Virus record (IMG/VR): IMGVR_UViG_3300020222_000082
Location: 1-37,495 of that record
Origin: a virus
Direction: 5' to 3' (one strand)
Length of the DNA: 37,495 bases
Part shown: positions 4,432 to 37,495 of the stretch, one piece after another
Layout of the letters: every line of letters starts with the position of its first letter
Position numbering within the stretch: the stretch's first letter is position 1
Notes under the pieces: model-generated
The model's input: only the letters and a program-made list of their open reading frames with translations
Database searches by the model: none
Told to the model about the DNA's origin: nothing
Position numbers and translations under genes: made by a program

Positions 4432-4459
4432 GTTTACCAAAAGGCAAAAAAAGTTGACA
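4432..4459 (+). promoter_or_regulatory. 28-bp repeated operator/promoter element, copy A
   Basis: This block begins GTTTACCAAAAGGCAAA and ends GTTGACA. It matches 13822-13849 on the other strand at all 28 positions. Its first part is an imperfect inverted repeat (TTTACC, AAAA, GGCAAA), as expected for a dimeric repressor site. TTGACA at 4454-4459 is a perfect -35 hexamer. It lies upstream of the rightward operon at 4530. Confidence 0.7.
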
Positions 4460-4466
4460 AAAAGTG

Positions 4467-4495
4467 TTTGCAAAGTAAATCCTACAAAGTAATAT
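4467..4495 (+). promoter_or_regulatory. Promoter of the rightward small-gene operon
   Basis: TTTGCA (4467-4472), a 17-base spacer, then TAATAT (4490-4495). An alternative -35 is TTGACA (4454-4459), but it has no good -10 at 16-18 bases. The matching minus-strand promoter at 13786-13814 has the same geometry (TTTACT, 17 bases, TATTAT), which favours this reading. Transcription would begin near 4502, 28 bases before the first ATG. Confidence 0.6.
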
Positions 4496-4529: not shown

Positions 4530-4751
4530 ATGGAACACAATATCGAGAACGTACTTGAGCGAACGCAATCACAACACGGATTTTGGCTCATCAATCACAA
4601 GAATATTATCCGAGCAGCTCTTATCACAGCAATCATGACGAAAGGAATTCAAGAAACAGTCGATCTTCTAAACGAAACTGACAGCCAATTCTCGAAAGAC
4701 ATTTATAAAATGATTGAGACTTACAACGATCAACAGAACGGAGAAGCGTAA
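4530..4751 (+). CDS. Small hypothetical protein, first gene of rightward operon
   Basis: A 73-aa protein, not recognised. It is predicted mainly alpha-helical, with a helical segment NIIRAALITAIMTKGIQETVDLL and a charged C-terminus. It has no Cys and no clear motif. GAAAGG upstream is a usable RBS. The next gene starts immediately after its stop, so the two are translated together. The conserved 28-bp control element shared with the replication operon suggests an early role. Function unknown. Confidence 0.75.
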   Translation: MEHNIENVLERTQSQHGFWLINHKNIIRAALITAIMTKGIQETVDLLNETDSQFSKDIYKMIETYNDQQNGEA

Positions 4752-5009
4752 ATGAGCGAAAAAGTGAAAATGCGCAGAGTCACGAACCTTAATACAAAAC
4801 GAATATCACATGAGATTGAGATTGAAAACCGATGGTATAAAATCGTTTCGGTAAAAACGCCGGCAGAATATACTGGAGAAAATCGACCGAATTTGCTAGA
4901 GCACCTCGAGAAAAACAACGTTATCGCGATCGCTCAGGTGAAACGGCCGAAAGGTAAAAAGATTTACACAGCATATAAATACCGTAATGGACTAATAAAA
5001 TTCGCATAA
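4752..5009 (+). CDS. Small basic hypothetical protein
   Basis: An 85-aa, Lys/Arg-rich protein, not recognised. It has alternating charged and hydrophobic residues suggesting beta strands (HEIEIENRWYKIVSV, then NVIAIAQVKRPKG and KIYTAYKYRNGLIKF). A small nucleic-acid-binding or inhibitor fold is possible but not shown. GGAGAAG before the ATG is a good RBS. It follows the previous stop directly and is followed by a strong RBS for the next gene. Confidence 0.75.
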   Translation: MSEKVKMRRVTNLNTKRISHEIEIENRWYKIVSVKTPAEYTGENRPNLLEHLEKNNVIAIAQVKRPKGKKIYTAYKYRNGLIKFA

Positions 5010-5022
5010 GGAGGTTAAAACC

Positions 5023-5178
5023 ATGCACGAAGATGAAAAACAAACATGCGCAAAAATAATAATCGGACTCACGCTATTTGCGGCAATTGCTCTTGCAGCA
5101 GTCGCAATCCTGCAAGATCCGCAAGGCACGATCCAAGCTTTAACAACAACTCACTGTGACGCTAGGCGTTGCTACTAA
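5023..5178 (+). CDS. Small single-pass membrane protein
   Basis: A 51-aa protein beginning MHEDEKQTCAKIIIGL. An acidic N-terminus is followed by one hydrophobic segment (IIIGLTLFAAIALAAVAIL, about residues 12-30). The polar tail has two Cys (THCDARRCY). The RBS AAGGAGG is excellent. It has no recognised family. An early phage membrane peptide could act on the host envelope or in superinfection exclusion, but this is a guess from shape alone. Confidence 0.7.
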   Translation: MHEDEKQTCAKIIIGLTLFAAIALAAVAILQDPQGTIQALTTTHCDARRCY

Positions 5179-5195
5179 ACAAGGAGGGTAATCCC

Positions 5196-5285
5196 ATGAA
5201 GATCAACGTAAAATTCGACGAAACAACAACAATTTTTCTGCCGAGCCTATGGCCAAGCGATAAAGTAGTCCTGGAGGCAATCTAA
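5196..5285 (+). CDS. Very short hypothetical protein (29 aa)
   Basis: MKINVKFDETTTIFLPSLWP and nine more residues. It is supported mainly by a near-perfect RBS (AAGGAGGG, seven bases before ATG) and by tight packing: its stop abuts the ATG of the next gene and overlaps that gene's RBS region. It could be a genuine micropeptide or a translational-coupling leader for the next gene. Confidence 0.55.
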   Translation: MKINVKFDETTTIFLPSLWPSDKVVLEAI

Positions 5286-5534
5286 ATGTTTAAGAAGTTC
5301 CATAAAGTACCAGAGTTTAATCATGTGCAACGTAATCAACAAAACGCGCTACGATACATCAGAGAGCTCTCAGATGAAGAATGGAAGCGTTTTAAGCGAG
5401 CTGCTGAGTCTTACCGCAAAAGCGACAAGATCCTAAATGGCGACGACGATGACGATATCACACACCTAGCGGCTGGAGACAGTTTTATCGAAACACCTCC
5501 GGCAAATATCCCACCAGCAGCAATTGACGAGTAA
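5286..5534 (+). CDS. Small hypothetical protein, last of rightward operon
   Basis: An 82-aa protein, not recognised. The N-terminal half is basic and helical (LRYIRELSDEEWKRFKRAAESYRKS). The middle has an acidic run (GDDDDDI) and the C-terminus is proline-rich and probably disordered. RBS GGAGG lies before the ATG. Two intrinsic terminators follow at 5543 and 5603, marking the operon end. Confidence 0.75.
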   Translation: MFKKFHKVPEFNHVQRNQQNALRYIRELSDEEWKRFKRAAESYRKSDKILNGDDDDDITHLAAGDSFIETPPANIPPAAIDE

Positions 5535-5752: not shown

Positions 5753-6061
5753 TGCAACATTTTTCAACTTTTTCCCTATAAAGGGGTATATATAGGCGTA
5801 TTAGACGCGTATATATACCCCTAAATCCCTCTAATCTATATATTCCTATATATTATAAAGAAAAATGTTGCACTTGTTGCAGCAGTACGTTCCCACCGAT
5901 GTTATTTAACGCTTGGTAAGTGCAACATTTTGTGTTTTTCATGTTGCAGCAACTGTTGCACTTTACTGCAACATGTGGTGCAACACTTTTTCGCCTCGTG
6001 CAACATGCGCCAGATCAAGAGTGCAACACTCCTGCAACACGAAAAAAGCGCAACTGTTGCA
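5753..6061. other. Probable replication origin: iteron array
   Basis: This is the largest noncoding gap (5535-6097). Twelve exact copies of TGCAACA or its complement start at 5753, 5866, 5875, 5921, 5942, 5954, 5967, 5979, 5999, 6022, 6033 and 6055, with two further GCAAC cores. Fewer than 0.1 copies are expected by chance in 309 bp. Both orientations occur with irregular spacing. One pair forms GCAACTGTTGC (6050-6060). A very A+T-rich stretch and a long palindrome lie at 5770-5865. The gap separates convergent operons and adjoins the primase-helicase gene. Together these features suit an origin with iterons and a melting region. Confidence 0.7.
5782..5822. repeat. 41-bp near-perfect palindrome in the origin region
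   Basis: AGGGGTATATATA (5782-5794) and its exact complement (5810-5822) form 13-bp arms. GCGT/ACGC (5796-5799 with 5805-5808) extends the stem after one G/G mismatch, leaving a 5-base loop ATTAG. There is no T-run, so it is not a terminator. In single-stranded form it would be a strong hairpin. It could be a primase start site, an initiator site or a melting element. Confidence 0.8.
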
Positions 6062-11182: not shown

Positions 11183-11309
11183 AAGCGCTCACAAGATGGT
11201 TAAGTTCGATCACGAGTGCGAACGTGTGAATGAGAGTCAGTATAAAAAGCACAAGTACCACGAGGCCGAGAACGAGCAGCACTAAAATTAAAGCTTCAAT
11301 TTTGTTCAT
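11172..11309 (-). CDS. Small hydrophobic membrane peptide
   Basis: A 45-aa protein starting MNKIEALILVLLVLGLVVLV. One long hydrophobic helix covers about residues 5-35, and the C-terminus is short and polar. The start ATG lies inside the 3' end of the upstream gene, and its own stop overlaps the nuclease ATG. It was chosen over a longer frame from 11366 because that would cover most of the upstream Cys-containing gene. Role unknown. Confidence 0.6.
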   Translation of the reverse strand: MNKIEALILVLLVLGLVVLVLFILTLIHTFALVIELNHLVSAYVE

Positions 11310-11466
11310 TTTCAAATTCGCTTTCATCTTCAACGCAATAATAAGAGTATGCGACAGGAAGCCCAAGCTTCTCAGCCTCTTTCAACTGTTCTTCTGTGAT
11401 CTCTGCGCCACAGTTGTGATCTTTCGTGTTGCTGCTGCAGAATGTTCGATCTTTATAACAAATCAT
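11296..11466 (-). CDS. Small Cys-containing phage protein
   Basis: A 56-aa protein starting MICYKDRTFC. It has four Cys (C3, C10, C19, C44) and ends with an acidic tail after GLPVAYSYYC. Proteins with the MICYKDxTFC opening are frequent in phages of Gram-positive bacteria and have no known function. The Cys pattern would suit a single zinc site. RBS AGAGG sits between the upstream stop and the ATG. It overlaps the next gene by 14 bp. Confidence 0.7.
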   Translation of the reverse strand: MICYKDRTFCSSNTKDHNCGAEITEEQLKEAEKLGLPVAYSYYCVEDESEFENEQN

Positions 11467-11469
11467 AAT

Positions 11470-12153: not shown

Positions 12154-12372
12154 CTAGTCCTTTTTAGTTATATCAATAACATCAGGATTGAGCATAGGAA
12201 TCTCGTCAATATCTTCAAAATCCATCGACACTTTTGACGTTGATTCGACTTCTTCATCAACTTCATACGCGAGTTCGCAAAGTCCGTATTTTTCAGCTTC
12301 TTCAGCAGAATCAGCTTTTATAAAAAACTCTTCTTGAAGGATTCTCGTTACTTCAATAGCATAGATTTTCAT
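12154..12372 (-). CDS. Small acidic protein, possibly DpnD/PcfM-like
   Basis: A 72-aa protein. The opening MKIYAIEVTRILQEEFFIKA followed by DSAEEAEKYG resembles the start of the DpnD/PcfM-like family, in which a strand is followed by an 'ADSxEEA' helix. The C-terminal half is acidic. Family members are small accessory proteins of mobile elements with no settled function. The ATG overlaps the upstream gene's stop. Family call tentative. Confidence 0.65.
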   Translation of the reverse strand: MKIYAIEVTRILQEEFFIKADSAEEAEKYGLCELAYEVDEEVESTSKVSMDFEDIDEIPMLNPDVIDITKKD

Positions 12373-12581
12373 AGAACAGCGTCTCCTGCTTTCGTTTGAA
12401 TATAATCGAGTTCGAGCACAGGCGCGTCAGCATAAGCCTTGGCCTGCTCTTCTGTTTCGAAAACCATGATTGCGCCGATCAAACCCTCTGCGTGTTCTTT
12501 GAGTGGCAGCATTTGCGATTTGCCTAAAACGTTCAAACCGAGCTCGGTTATCACTTTACTATTCAAATACACTTTTGACAT
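12369..12581 (-). CDS. Small hypothetical protein downstream of the structured RNA
   Basis: A 70-aa protein, not recognised. The segment AIMVFETEEQAKAYADA resembles small ferredoxin-like alpha/beta folds. RBS AGGAGG lies close to the ATG at 12581. It is the first gene after the structured 12604-12829 region, so its translation could be controlled by that RNA. Its TAA/ATG overlap with the next gene indicates coupling. Confidence 0.7.
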   Translation of the reverse strand: MSKVYLNSKVITELGLNVLGKSQMLPLKEHAEGLIGAIMVFETEEQAKAYADAPVLELDYIQTKAGDAVL

Positions 12582-12603
12582 AAAATCCTCCTACAGATTA
12601 TTT

Positions 12604-12829
12604 TCGCGGGTGCATAGAGATGATGAACTCCTCTCCCATCACGACGGTCCACCACAGAAGTCGTGAAAAATTGCTCATCATCTCTAAACACCCGCGAGTG
12701 ATCGAGCGCGCGACGCGGGCCACAACCTACAGTTTCTGTTTGCTTATGGCTATACTTATTGCACGTGACCTGGAAGCGTAAACTTGAAGTTTCTGTTTCC
12801 GGTTTTCTGCCCGCGTCACACGCTCGATC
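12604..12829 (-). ncRNA. Structured noncoding RNA or leader between small early genes
   Basis: Two adjacent long hairpins fill this gap. Hairpin 1: TCGCGGGTG (12604-12612) pairs with 12689-12697. A perfect 12-bp helix then joins 12615-12626 to 12675-12686, and a 7-bp apical stem joins 12639-12645 to 12660-12666. Hairpin 2: 12700-12708 pairs with 12821-12829 (9 bp) and 12712-12720 with 12809-12817 (9 bp), around an 88-base region with an 11-bp direct repeat AGTTTCTGTTT (12731 and 12788). CGCGGG and CCCGCG segments recur, so alternative pairings between hairpins are possible. It lies in the leftward operon, so I assign the minus strand. No credible protein is encoded here. Confidence 0.65.
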
Positions 12830-12836
12830 GATTAAA

Positions 12837-13112
12837 TTATTTTTTAGGTACGCCGTACTGCGCGACATAGCGCAGTGTCTCGTTCAGTTCTTCTTCGCTT
12901 AAGCCCATAACAGTAACTTGATTATAAACCTGCAGCGCCTCAAGAACGATCACCGGTTCGTTATTGCGAGTCGGAAGTGGCGTCAACGACTTTGCGACCA
13001 TGAGCTGATTGTTGATTGCGTCCGCAACCGTTCGGCCCGTAGCGTCATCGACAATGCTTTTTCCGGCTTCTTTGAGTTGTTGTAAAAGTTCTTTTGCGTA
13101 AGTCATATTCAT
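12837..13112 (-). CDS. Small hypothetical protein
   Basis: A 91-aa, helical protein, not recognised (TYAKELLQQLKEAGKSIVDD, then a C-terminal helix LSEEELNETLRYVAQYG). The ATG overlaps the upstream TGA (ATGA). The stop lies just before the structured RNA region, which is therefore transcribed with it. No motif gives a function. Confidence 0.65.
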   Translation of the reverse strand: MNMTYAKELLQQLKEAGKSIVDDATGRTVADAINNQLMVAKSLTPLPTRNNEPVIVLEALQVYNQVTVMGLSEEELNETLRYVAQYGVPKK

Positions 13113-13785: not shown

Positions 13786-13814
13786 ATAATACTAGGCTGT
13801 AGTTAAAAAGTAAA
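13786..13814 (-). promoter_or_regulatory. Promoter of the leftward replication operon
   Basis: On the minus strand TTTACT (13814-13809), a 17-base spacer and TATTAT (13791-13786). Geometry and upstream context match the rightward promoter at 4467-4495. Transcription would begin near 13779. Confidence 0.6.
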
Positions 13815-13821
13815 CACTAAA

Positions 13822-13849
13822 TGTCAACTTTTTTTGCCTTTTGGTAAAC
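13822..13849 (-). promoter_or_regulatory. 28-bp repeated operator/promoter element, copy B
   Basis: On the minus strand this is identical to 4432-4459 over 28 bp, including the inverted repeat TTTACC-AAAA-GGCAAA and TTGACA. Similarity resumes three bases later with AGTGTTT. Having it upstream of both convergent early operons implies shared control. Confidence 0.7.
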
Positions 13850-13859
13850 TATGGGGCTC

Positions 13860-13896
13860 TATAATAAAAACTCACGCGCTAGAGCTGCGCGTGAGT
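13860..13896 (-). terminator. Terminator of the XRE/nucleotide operon, overlapping the last codons
   Basis: ACTCACGCGC (13870-13879) pairs perfectly with GCGCGTGAGT (13887-13896), 7-base loop. On the minus strand TTTTTATTAT follows. The right arm and loop lie inside the end of the dCMP deaminase gene. It separates this operon from promoter B. Confidence 0.88.
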
Positions 13897-16890: not shown

Positions 16891-16912
16891 AATCACCTCC
16901 GTGGATTTGAGC

Positions 16913-16943
16913 GAGCCCAGGCCTTACGCACTGGCCTGGGCTC
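16913..16943 (-). other. Perfect 11-bp hairpin between two early genes
   Basis: GAGCCCAGGCC (16913-16923) and its exact complement (16933-16943) enclose a 9-base loop. On the transcribed (minus) strand no T-run follows, so it is unlikely to terminate the operon. It may protect the 3' end of the upstream message or reduce read-through. Rightward it is followed by only TGTTAATATTT. Confidence 0.6.
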
Positions 16944-16952
16944 TGTTAATAT

Positions 16953-17510
16953 TTAGATCAAATCTTCGTCATCTTCGTCGTCATCGAGAAGATCGCCGAA
17001 GTCGCTTTCAGGTGAAGAGGCAGATCCGCCTAGTGGCTCACCATCAGCAATTTTTTGAACGTTGTTAAGTCCAGCAGAGATTCCTTGTTTTCCTGCAACG
17101 TTGTATGCGAAGAAGTTAAGGCTAACTCGAGCATAGCAACCGCTATAAACTTCACCGGCGTCAATAATCGGATTTAGATCGCGATCGACAACACCTGGCT
17201 TGTTCTTGCTCGAAACATTCATGTAGAAGTGTCCTGTGTATTCAGGATTCTGCATTGTGTCTGCGTCTTCGTCACCATCGCGAAGAGTTGTTGCAAGATT
17301 CTTCGGAATCGTCTTGTTTTTGAATTTGTCCTTACCAGCCTCAGCCGCAGCAGCTTGAGCGTTTCGGATTTTCTTTAGAGTTTCCTTATCGCTTTTCGGG
17401 ATTAGGATAACAGTGCTATATTTTGGATCGCTTCCGTTAAACGACTGTGCTTCGAATAAACGAGCATAACTTAAACGGACTTTTCCTGTAACAACTTTAG
17501 TGCTTGACAT
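16953..17510 (-). CDS. ssDNA-binding-like protein (DUF2815 type)
   Basis: This 185-aa protein starts with a strand-rich OB-like domain (KVRLSYARLFEAQSFNGSDP, then YSTVILIPK). It contains YSGCYARVSLNFFAYN and ends in a strongly acidic tail (DDEDDEDLI), a hallmark of single-strand-binding proteins that recruit partners through the C-terminus. DUF2815 proteins occupy this place in many Gram-positive phage replication modules. It would coat ssDNA for the polymerase and primase-helicase encoded downstream. Confidence 0.85.
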   Translation of the reverse strand: MSSTKVVTGKVRLSYARLFEAQSFNGSDPKYSTVILIPKSDKETLKKIRNAQAAAAEAGKDKFKNKTIPKNLATTLRDGDEDADTMQNPEYTGHFYMNVSSKNKPGVVDRDLNPIIDAGEVYSGCYARVSLNFFAYNVAGKQGISAGLNNVQKIADGEPLGGSASSPESDFGDLLDDDEDDEDLI

Positions 17511-17912: not shown

Positions 17913-18206
17913 TTATCCTTCCACGTTAATTTTCTTCTTATTCGCTTCAAGATGTGCCTTGTAAGCTTCTTGAATCTGATCACTGAGTTCTTTTGAATTA
18001 CCGAAATAAATATCATCATAACTCACTCGATACAGTTTCTTAATATGCTCGATCTGGTTTATACTGATCGAACGGCTATCTGCTTCCCACTTTGCGAGAG
18101 TAACTTTACTCACGCCTAGTCGATTCGCAGCGTCTGCTTGACTATACCCAGCCCGGACTCGAAGCGCCGCGAGCGTCATAAGTTGATTTTGCGATTTCTC
18201 GTCCAT
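17913..18206 (-). CDS. XRE-family helix-turn-helix regulator
   Basis: A 97-aa protein. The Cro/C1-type HTH spans about residues 11-66: LAALRVRAGYSQADAANRLG, VSKVTLAKWEAD, ISINQIEHIKKLYRV. The short C-terminal helix has no peptidase domain, so it is not a LexA-like repressor. It is the first gene of the leftward early operon, behind promoter 18268-18296. A perfect 6-bp inverted repeat right after the start site suggests autoregulation. It may also bind the 28-bp elements near 4432 and 13822. No integrase is present, so a lysogeny role is doubtful. GGAG precedes the ATG. Confidence 0.9.
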   Translation of the reverse strand: MDEKSQNQLMTLAALRVRAGYSQADAANRLGVSKVTLAKWEADSRSISINQIEHIKKLYRVSYDDIYFGNSKELSDQIQEAYKAHLEANKKKINVEG

Positions 18207-18267: not shown

Positions 18268-18296
18268 ATTATACAGTGATTTGAATAACAATGGAA
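18268..18296 (-). promoter_or_regulatory. Promoter of the XRE-led early operon
   Basis: On the minus strand a consensus -10 TATAAT (18273-18268) lies 17 bases from TTCCAT (18296-18291), a weak -35. Just upstream, GTTTACAAAAGG (18310-18299) resembles the first part of the 28-bp control element with one base missing. The rest of the 18207-18369 gap shows no further gene. Confidence 0.6.
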
Positions 18297-18369
18297 CACC
18301 TTTTGTAAACTTTTTTATACTTTTTGACTAGCTTTGTTTTCTATATGTAAAATAATGGCATATTTCGAG

Positions 18370-36620: not shown

Positions 36621-37495
36621 TTACTGTTTTACGTTAAATATGACGCCGCCTTTGTCGATACGATTTGGATCAACATTTTCATCTTCGTTTTCAGTAACAA
36701 TCGGAGGAGGCGTGTCTTGGTCCTCGTCAGTGTCGTCGTCAGCGTCTGTGTCGCTTTCGAATTCTTGCTCTTCGATTTTCTTTTTAACTTCTTCCCAGTC
36801 AAGATCATAGAGTTCACATATTTGCTGAAGCACAGTGTCATCATCAAGACGAGTCGCTGCCGCGAGAATTGTCTCAAGAAGAATCTGTTTTGTCTGAGCT
36901 TCTATTTGCTCATTCTTAACGAGGTCATTTTCGTTCACCATTGTTTCACGAACAAACTTGAATTCAACTTCGCTTGGATTGTAACTCGATCCGGTGCGGC
37001 GGTTGATATCCGCGACAACCATCTCGTTTATCCACTTAAGCAAGACGCGAAGACGCACCTCGGCTTTATTTGCTTTCATGTTTAGAAGTGCGTATCGAGA
37101 TTTAATAACGATATTCGTGATGTTACCGTCACCAATTTGCGATGAGTCAAAAGCCATGCCGAATTTGTAGATGTTCTCTTTGTCGATTTCCATTTTCGTC
37201 TTGCGACCCTCGACAGGAATCTCAACAGTCTTAACGTCAACGCCTCCGTCGTCACCAGTCGAAACGGTTTTCTTCGCTTTTAGGTTCATGCGGAGTTTGT
37301 CTAAACTGTCGCCCATATAACCGCGAACGACATAGATCGCGTCTGTGAAGTCTTGAAGATTGTTCGAGAGAAACGCGTTCATTAAATCGTAGTCGTCGAT
37401 CAGATCTTTAATCGGCTCAAGGTCAGTCTTGTTGTACTTGTTATTGTCGAGCCGCATGAAAGGAAGTCGTCCGTAATCGCGCCCAAGCAATTCAC
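36621..37495 (-). CDS. Portal protein, C-terminal half (gene continues from position 1)
   Basis: The frame is open to the window edge and joins the 1-827 part once the 127-bp overlap is removed. It contains a typical SPP1 gp6-like segment: LGRDYGRLPFMRLDNNKYNK and DLEPIKDLIDDYDLMNAFLS, then IKSRYALLNMKANKAEVRLR (clip/stem region). It ends in a very acidic C-terminus (DTDADDDTDEDQDTPPP). It occurs just upstream of the fibre-like genes. An apparent ATG at 37490 is internal, not the start. The acidic tail is longer than usual. Confidence 0.9.
   Translation of the reverse strand, partial: ELLGRDYGRLPFMRLDNNKYNKTDLEPIKDLIDDYDLMNAFLSNNLQDFTDAIYVVRGYMGDSLDKLRMNLKAKKTVSTGDDGGVDVKTVEIPVEGRKTKMEIDKENIYKFGMAFDSSQIGDGNITNIVIKSRYALLNMKANKAEVRLRVLLKWINEMVVADINRRTGSSYNPSEVEFKFVRETMVNENDLVKNEQIEAQTKQILLETILAAATRLDDDTVLQQICELYDLDWEEVKKKIEEQEFESDTDADDDTDEDQDTPPPIVTENEDENVDPNRIDKGGVIFNVKQ
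37369..37495. repeat. Terminal direct repeat, right copy
   Basis: Identical to 1-127. See the left copy. Removing one copy closes the circle and restores the portal gene. Confidence 0.95.

Follow-up and report, generated by a model that had tools for sequence, protein, structure and literature searches.

Why does one junction in the replication operon of this phage, an operon that is otherwise gapless, hold 255 nt that fold into two long hairpins? The window (the whole stretch of DNA that we analysed) is the 37,495-base record of a virus and has a 127-bp direct terminal repeat (1-127 is the same as 37369-37495). Because its two ends share these 127 bp, it is probably a complete tailed-phage genome, either circular or circularly permuted. 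A search of the phage collection gave no DNA-level match for the window. At the gene level, the replication block resembles those of streptococcal and enterococcal phages: the order of genes (polymerase, VapE-like primase, VRR-NUC, helicase, terminase) is akin, the polymerase is ~50% identical to those of Javan626 and phiFL4A, and the nearest polymerase (from locus L004) has 58% identity.

Two long hairpins between phage genes

From 13747 down to 6098, the junctions neighbouring the gap measure -4 to 24 nt (counting the short ORFs in 11183-11469), which bears out the claim of a preliminary description of this locus that a gap of 255 bp interrupts a gapless operon. The gap separates the genes at 12837-13112 and 12369-12581 (Table 1). 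For the two proteins that these genes encode, searches of viral contigs returned no relative and comparison with phage proteins gave nothing convincing (one match at E 0.2); their structure models have mean pLDDT of 62.7 and 59.3. An overlapping ORF of 101 amino acids (12563-12868) is probably spurious, as it contains both stems and overlaps both neighbouring genes.

Table 1. Features in and around the gap, with positions in the window.
Feature	Position	Strand	Description
Intrinsic-terminator-like site closing the preceding unit	13870..13896	-	10-bp stem, T run
Shared promoter-region motif heading the unit	13813..13834	-	from motif search
Upstream gene	12837..13112	-	91 aa; family and relative searches empty
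Hairpin A	12700..12829	-	outer helix ~22 bp (12829-12809 with 12700-12720), two G-U; 88-nt loop
Inverted repeat of A	12700-12720/12809-12829		21 nt, 90%
Direct repeat, copy 1	12788..12798	-	11-nt core AAACAGAAACT, in loop of A
Direct repeat, copy 2	12731..12741	-	same 11-nt core, in loop of A
Hairpin B	12604..12697	-	10 bp, one U-U mismatch, 14 bp; loop ~44-48 nt
Inverted repeat of B	12604-12626/12675-12697		23 nt, 91%
ATTATTT flank repeat	12597..12603 and 12836-12842		7 nt; 8 if base 12604 (end of B) is counted
Ribosome-binding site AGGAGG of the downstream gene	12587..12592	-	outside both hairpins; from sequence and pairing
Downstream gene	12369..12581	-	70 aa; family and relative searches empty

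Between these genes lie two long, nearly perfect hairpins, and they are real. On the - strand, which is the coding strand of the operon, hairpin A (12829-12700) comes first and hairpin B (12697-12604) follows after 2 bases. The preliminary description had given two adjacent helices of 9+12+7 and 9+9 bp; they are indeed adjacent, but the true pairing is longer, with ~22 bp in A and 10+14 bp in B (19 and 24 bp by automatic count). Its claims about the repeat and about the end of the block stand. The 88-base enclosed region with an 11-bp direct repeat is found inside hairpin A, where the repeat as a whole spans 18 nt at 83% identity around the identical 11-nt core, and no further copy of the 18-nt motif occurs elsewhere in the window within 3 mismatches. 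The block also ends just before the ribosome-binding site of the 12369-12581 gene: AGGAGG begins 11 nt past B; part of it is paired, but to bases next to it and not to either hairpin.

The fold is far stronger than expected by chance. On the - strand, a 281-nt stretch that includes the gap has a minimum free energy of -120.1 kcal/mol, as compared to -73.2 (standard deviation 4.8) for 200 dinucleotide shuffles (z = -9.7), and none of the 200 folded as well. The + strand of the same stretch reaches -103.8 (z = -8.1). When we folded 731 stretches of 255 nt from the - strand of the window, the two best (-118.1 and -97.3) both overlapped the hairpins, and the best elsewhere reached -95.8. The inverted repeats of the window score 18 and 16, and no repeat in 100 first-order Markov genomes reached 16. 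Taken alone, hairpins A and B fold at -62.4 and -53.2 kcal/mol, which 0 of 300 shuffles equalled in either case; the Markov shuffle used in our comparison with T7 gives milder z scores (-4.2 for A and -6.5 for B). The loops, on the other hand, are ordinary. The 88-nt inside of A folds at -14.6, and 78 of 300 shuffles did as well; the 48-nt loop of B folds at -10.2, and 181 of 300 shuffles did as well. Alone, on the - strand, the loops have z scores of -0.59 and 0.37, like shuffled sequence. The excess stability is confined to the two outer helices, so if selection acts here, its target is the long helices rather than a folded core.

The outer helices depart from Watson-Crick pairing at 5 positions, and 4 of the 5 are G-U pairs on the - strand: U-G at 12820/12709, 12818/12711 and 12688/12613, and G-U at 12674/12627. 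(The only U-U, at 12687/12614, is taken from the printed structure.) On the + strand these four would read as A-C. As the G-U pairs are on the - strand and none is on the + strand, the wobbles hint that the sense RNA is the functional form, with the caveat that a 4:0 count is small and would arise 1 time in 16 if the strands were equally likely.

Long inverted repeats also occur in other phages. Among 132 fetched loci (1.18 Mb, near-duplicates included), we found 11 inverted repeats with scores of at least 16, and two loci, L030 and L097, have pairs of inverted repeats within 100 nt. In L030, an unrelated phage contig, a gap at 700-1012 holds several adjacent long hairpins (z = -7.6) and matches no Rfam family at the gathering level. 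The 91 relatives (1.23 Mb, near-duplicates included) have 33 inverted repeats with scores of at least 16, many of them in the likely origin.

Known RNA classes, relatives and DNA elements

The preliminary description had also stated that the block is not a terminator, a tRNA or a recognised RNA class, and our scans agree. No T run follows the stem, as an intrinsic terminator would have; B is followed by AAATAAT, and no terminator site was called there. A search ruled out tRNA and tmRNA. None of the Rfam 15 families matched the window at the gathering score, and the best sub-threshold match in a lax search was to a microRNA model (E 0.055, 22.2 of 100 bits). Box C/D RNAs, as in TIGR arrays, pair a box C (RUGAUGA) with a box D (CUGA). 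Each strand of the gap has just one box C-like word, and CUGA is absent from both, so we rejected this class. As for a retron or an RNA partner of a toxin-antitoxin system, we rejected both, since the main ORFs that we scanned encode no reverse transcriptase and no such protein.

What did not stand in the earlier interpretation, which was otherwise right about structure, place and the lack of a terminator, tRNA or Rfam family, is the idea that CGCGGG and CCCGCG segments of the two hairpins re-pair to make a switch. The re-paired fold has -81.1 kcal/mol instead of -120.1, a cost of ~39 kcal/mol, and we therefore reject the switch; an RNA switch or riboswitch with two folds of similar energy is not what we find. 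The block does directly precede the 70-aa gene, so we also considered that it might be a riboswitch, an attenuator or a translational operator for that gene. Given the energy of the alternative pairing, a ribosome-binding site whose pairing is incomplete and involves adjacent bases, loops no stabler than shuffled sequence, and the lack of a terminator or a match to a riboswitch family, this is very improbable.

We searched for homologous hairpins in several ways. A DNA search with the block found no match in phages or plasmids. Aligning the polymerase yielded 80 loci, and of 87 polymerase relatives, 74 have at least 2.5 kb of upstream sequence: when we scanned up to 5 kb ahead of the gene in these, no locus carried a pair of strong inverted repeats spaced 60 nt or less apart, and a lone inverted repeat with a score of at least 16 turned up in 9. 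A low-stringency search of the fetched loci (212 sequences by the program's count) gave nothing convincing. The pattern of the loop's repeat pair occurs in at least 119 stretches of viral contigs. Among the matches listed (202 in 119 loci), 193 lie inside open frames of at least 100 codons, and just a single match, within a coding repeat, has an inverted repeat with a score of at least 12 nearby. A pattern search with the stems gave two matches, neither of which folds as a similar hairpin, and we take both to be due to chance. Searching genome contigs with the polymerase gave only two distant loci, and searches for related loci with the dCMP deaminase and the nuclease were unproductive. Within the DNA, pattern and protein collections that we searched, the hairpin pair thus appears to be an orphan. 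The absence of relatives from every search would be expected of leftover or drifting inverted repeats with no function. However, two near-perfect stems stand next to each other in an early operon that is otherwise gapless, and neither was reached in any of the 100 Markov genomes, so we give almost no credence to this explanation.

Could the block act as DNA instead, whether as a mobile insertion or as a site for strand-specific replication or recombination, with RNA folding as a by-product? Single-stranded DNA of the block folds strongly too (z = -8.2), and 7 (or 8) bp are repeated on both flanks. Furthermore, without the block the junction would look like the others, running from a stop codon through a short spacer that contains a ribosome-binding site to ATG. 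The flank repeat might just conceivably be an insertion scar. However, an 8-nt match at this spacing occurs at 405 of 36,995 positions in the window, and 2.1% of AT-rich flank shuffles share 8 nt (this is a null for 8 nt, and the repeat outside the block has 7). The two ends of the block do not form an inverted repeat with one another, and there is no second copy in the genome or in our phage, plasmid and viral searches. The terminal inverted repeats and further copies expected of an insertion sequence or a MITE are both absent, and we consider a mobile piece a weakly supported possibility. The wobbles, which favour sense RNA, also argue against a DNA-level element, as does the likely location of the replication origin, at 5753-6061 (5.75-6.06 kb). 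The word TGTTGCA has 12 of its 16 copies in the window there, facing either way and immediately past the primase gene. Polymerase relatives often carry inverted repeats of short iterated words just after the primase gene as well, and inverted repeats with scores of at least 13 lie 4.0-6.5 kb after the start of the polymerase in 26 loci (79 of 87 loci span that stretch). Since the cluster of iterated words is at 5753-6061, we rejected the hairpin block as the replication origin. Overall, a DNA-level element is rather unlikely.

A proposed role in dividing the early mRNA

The motif that heads the unit, AAAAAAGTTKACANNNRGTGTT, has three exact copies in the window, at 4447-4468 (+), 13813-13834 (-) and 18295-18316 (-). 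Allowing up to two mismatches adds no match in the window, and 0 of 100 shuffles contain the motif. Every copy precedes a run of genes. The copies may be parts of early promoters, or else operator sites that belong to the helix-turn-helix gene (17913-18206). (Behind the first copy, at 4530-5534, are short + strand ORFs with no Pfam match, in a genome that is otherwise mostly - strand.) The hairpins lie ~950 nt into the unit that would start near 13.8 kb. On the - strand from 13.87 kb to 11.0 kb we found no terminator-like sites, including between the motif and the hairpins; with the motif upstream and no such site in between, the hairpins appear to belong to a single transcription unit. The wobbles and this promoter map both favour a sense-strand RNA. 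A promoter-like site on the + strand (TTGACA-18-TATTTT, 12575-12604) faces the hairpins, and such matches are no commoner there than in shuffles. Elsewhere, at 16901-16960 (-), an 11-bp GC-rich hairpin without a T run lies directly after the gene for the single-stranded DNA-binding protein (SSB) and is followed by a short ORF resembling a membrane protein.

We propose, tentatively, that the hairpins are an RNase III-type cis-acting intercistronic element for mRNA processing or stability, by which the early operon mRNA is divided; this is the explanation that we prefer, at somewhat less than even confidence. We infer that the unit is transcribed as drawn, from near 13.8 kb, and that two double-stranded stems then form in the cell between the 12837-13112 and 12369-12581 genes. 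The host's RNase III would most likely cut these stems of ~22-24 bp, or the stems would at least block exonucleases. Once the transcript was split, its promoter-proximal part would carry four small genes, and its distal replication part would begin just before a strong ribosome-binding site and carry the nuclease, the polymerase and the primase-helicase. As separate RNAs, the two parts could have different lifetimes and yields.

Our proposal fits the position of the block, in mid-operon and in its only large gap, and a ribosome-binding site that the hairpins leave free. It also fits the structure. The helices of ~22 and 24 bp make about two turns each, and a fold that is confined to outer helices suits double-strand recognition and not a folded ligand pocket. 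We also count in its support the strength of the fold, the G-U pairs on the - strand, helices longer than those of the T7 early gaps, and the fact that this genome has another hairpin lacking a T run between genes, the one that follows the SSB gene. Against it, we count the lack of a homolog, the absence of the sequence that the T7 sites share, the long inverted repeats elsewhere in phages, and the small number of wobbles. RNase III targets in lambda, T7 and T3 are described in PMC5371410, which, along with titles on SP82 cited in PMC12502629, indicates that RNase III cut sites occur in phages of Gram-positive as well as Gram-negative hosts.

Alternatively, a structured RNA might be cut out of the operon and act in trans, as a decoy or inhibitor of a host dsRNA-binding or defence protein, with AAACAGAAACT as a possible binding site. 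This would account for stems that are unusually long and for the duplicated 18-nt motif (83%) in the loop of A, which is unique in the window within 3 mismatches, and there is a precedent: according to PMC10686824, a staphylococcal cyclase senses structured RNAs that phages make. However, the shared promoter-region motif has no copy adjoining the hairpins, the loops are no more structured than chance, no partner protein family is found among the neighbours, and a mere trigger of defence would not be maintained for its own sake. We consider a trans-acting RNA unlikely. Of the roles suggested in the preliminary description, a noncoding RNA standing on its own or a protein decoy keeps some probability, with the lack of an adjoining motif copy against it. 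The more specific version, in which excised stems act on a host dsRNA-binding factor (RNase III or a defence sensor) that docks at the duplicated AAACAGAAACT, is quite doubtful.

In sum, this is a strong mRNA structure whose working type is most likely already known; nothing so far shows novelty. If the processing element that we prefer is correct, the locus would be a strong example of mRNA division by long hairpins, in a little-known group of phages related to those of streptococci and enterococci. If the hairpins acted in trans, they would be a new phage RNA, and no result here shows such action. The stems are the strongest local fold of the genome, and they are chiefly useful as a starting point for RNA-seq.

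Comparison with known systems

REP and MITE-type elements are similar in that they are palindromic blocks, here with a possible short flanking duplication, but the block in this phage is single copy and lacks matching terminal inverted repeats. CBASS-activating RNA (cabRNA) is likewise a strongly structured RNA from a phage of Gram-positive bacteria; as described in PMC10686824, however, cabRNA comes from terminase genes, and these hairpins lie in a noncoding gap of an early operon.

The hairpins also resemble put of HK022, in having two adjacent stem-loops in an early transcript with no T run. As a processive antiterminator RNA of this kind, they would bind the polymerase that made them and allow it to read through downstream terminators. 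Put of HK022 has two stem-loops, put RNAs are ~70 nt, and putR lies ~270 nt from the start site (these values are from PMC9378689). The block here has 226 nt, about three times the length, and is far from the promoter (~950 nt downstream). There would also be nothing nearby to read through, as no - strand terminator-like site is found from 13.87 to 11.0 kb. An antiterminator is very unlikely.

The closest comparison for a processing element is with the gaps of the T7 early operon, where RNase III cuts (at sites that are unannotated in the T7 record). In the same analysis that gave helices of 19 and 24 bp here, the longest helices in the T7 gaps were 9, 9, 9, 12 and 17 bp, with 6 bp in a control gap. 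So the helices here are longer than the 9-17 bp of T7, and they close loops of 48 and 88 nt. The T7 sites share a sequence, AAGGTC ... GGCC, which (by eye) is absent from these hairpins, so they are not sites of the T7 type in that sense. What they have in common with the RNase III sites of T7, and of SP82 of Bacillus, is their placement: in each case, hairpins occupy early-operon gaps, shortly ahead of the ribosome-binding site of the following gene.
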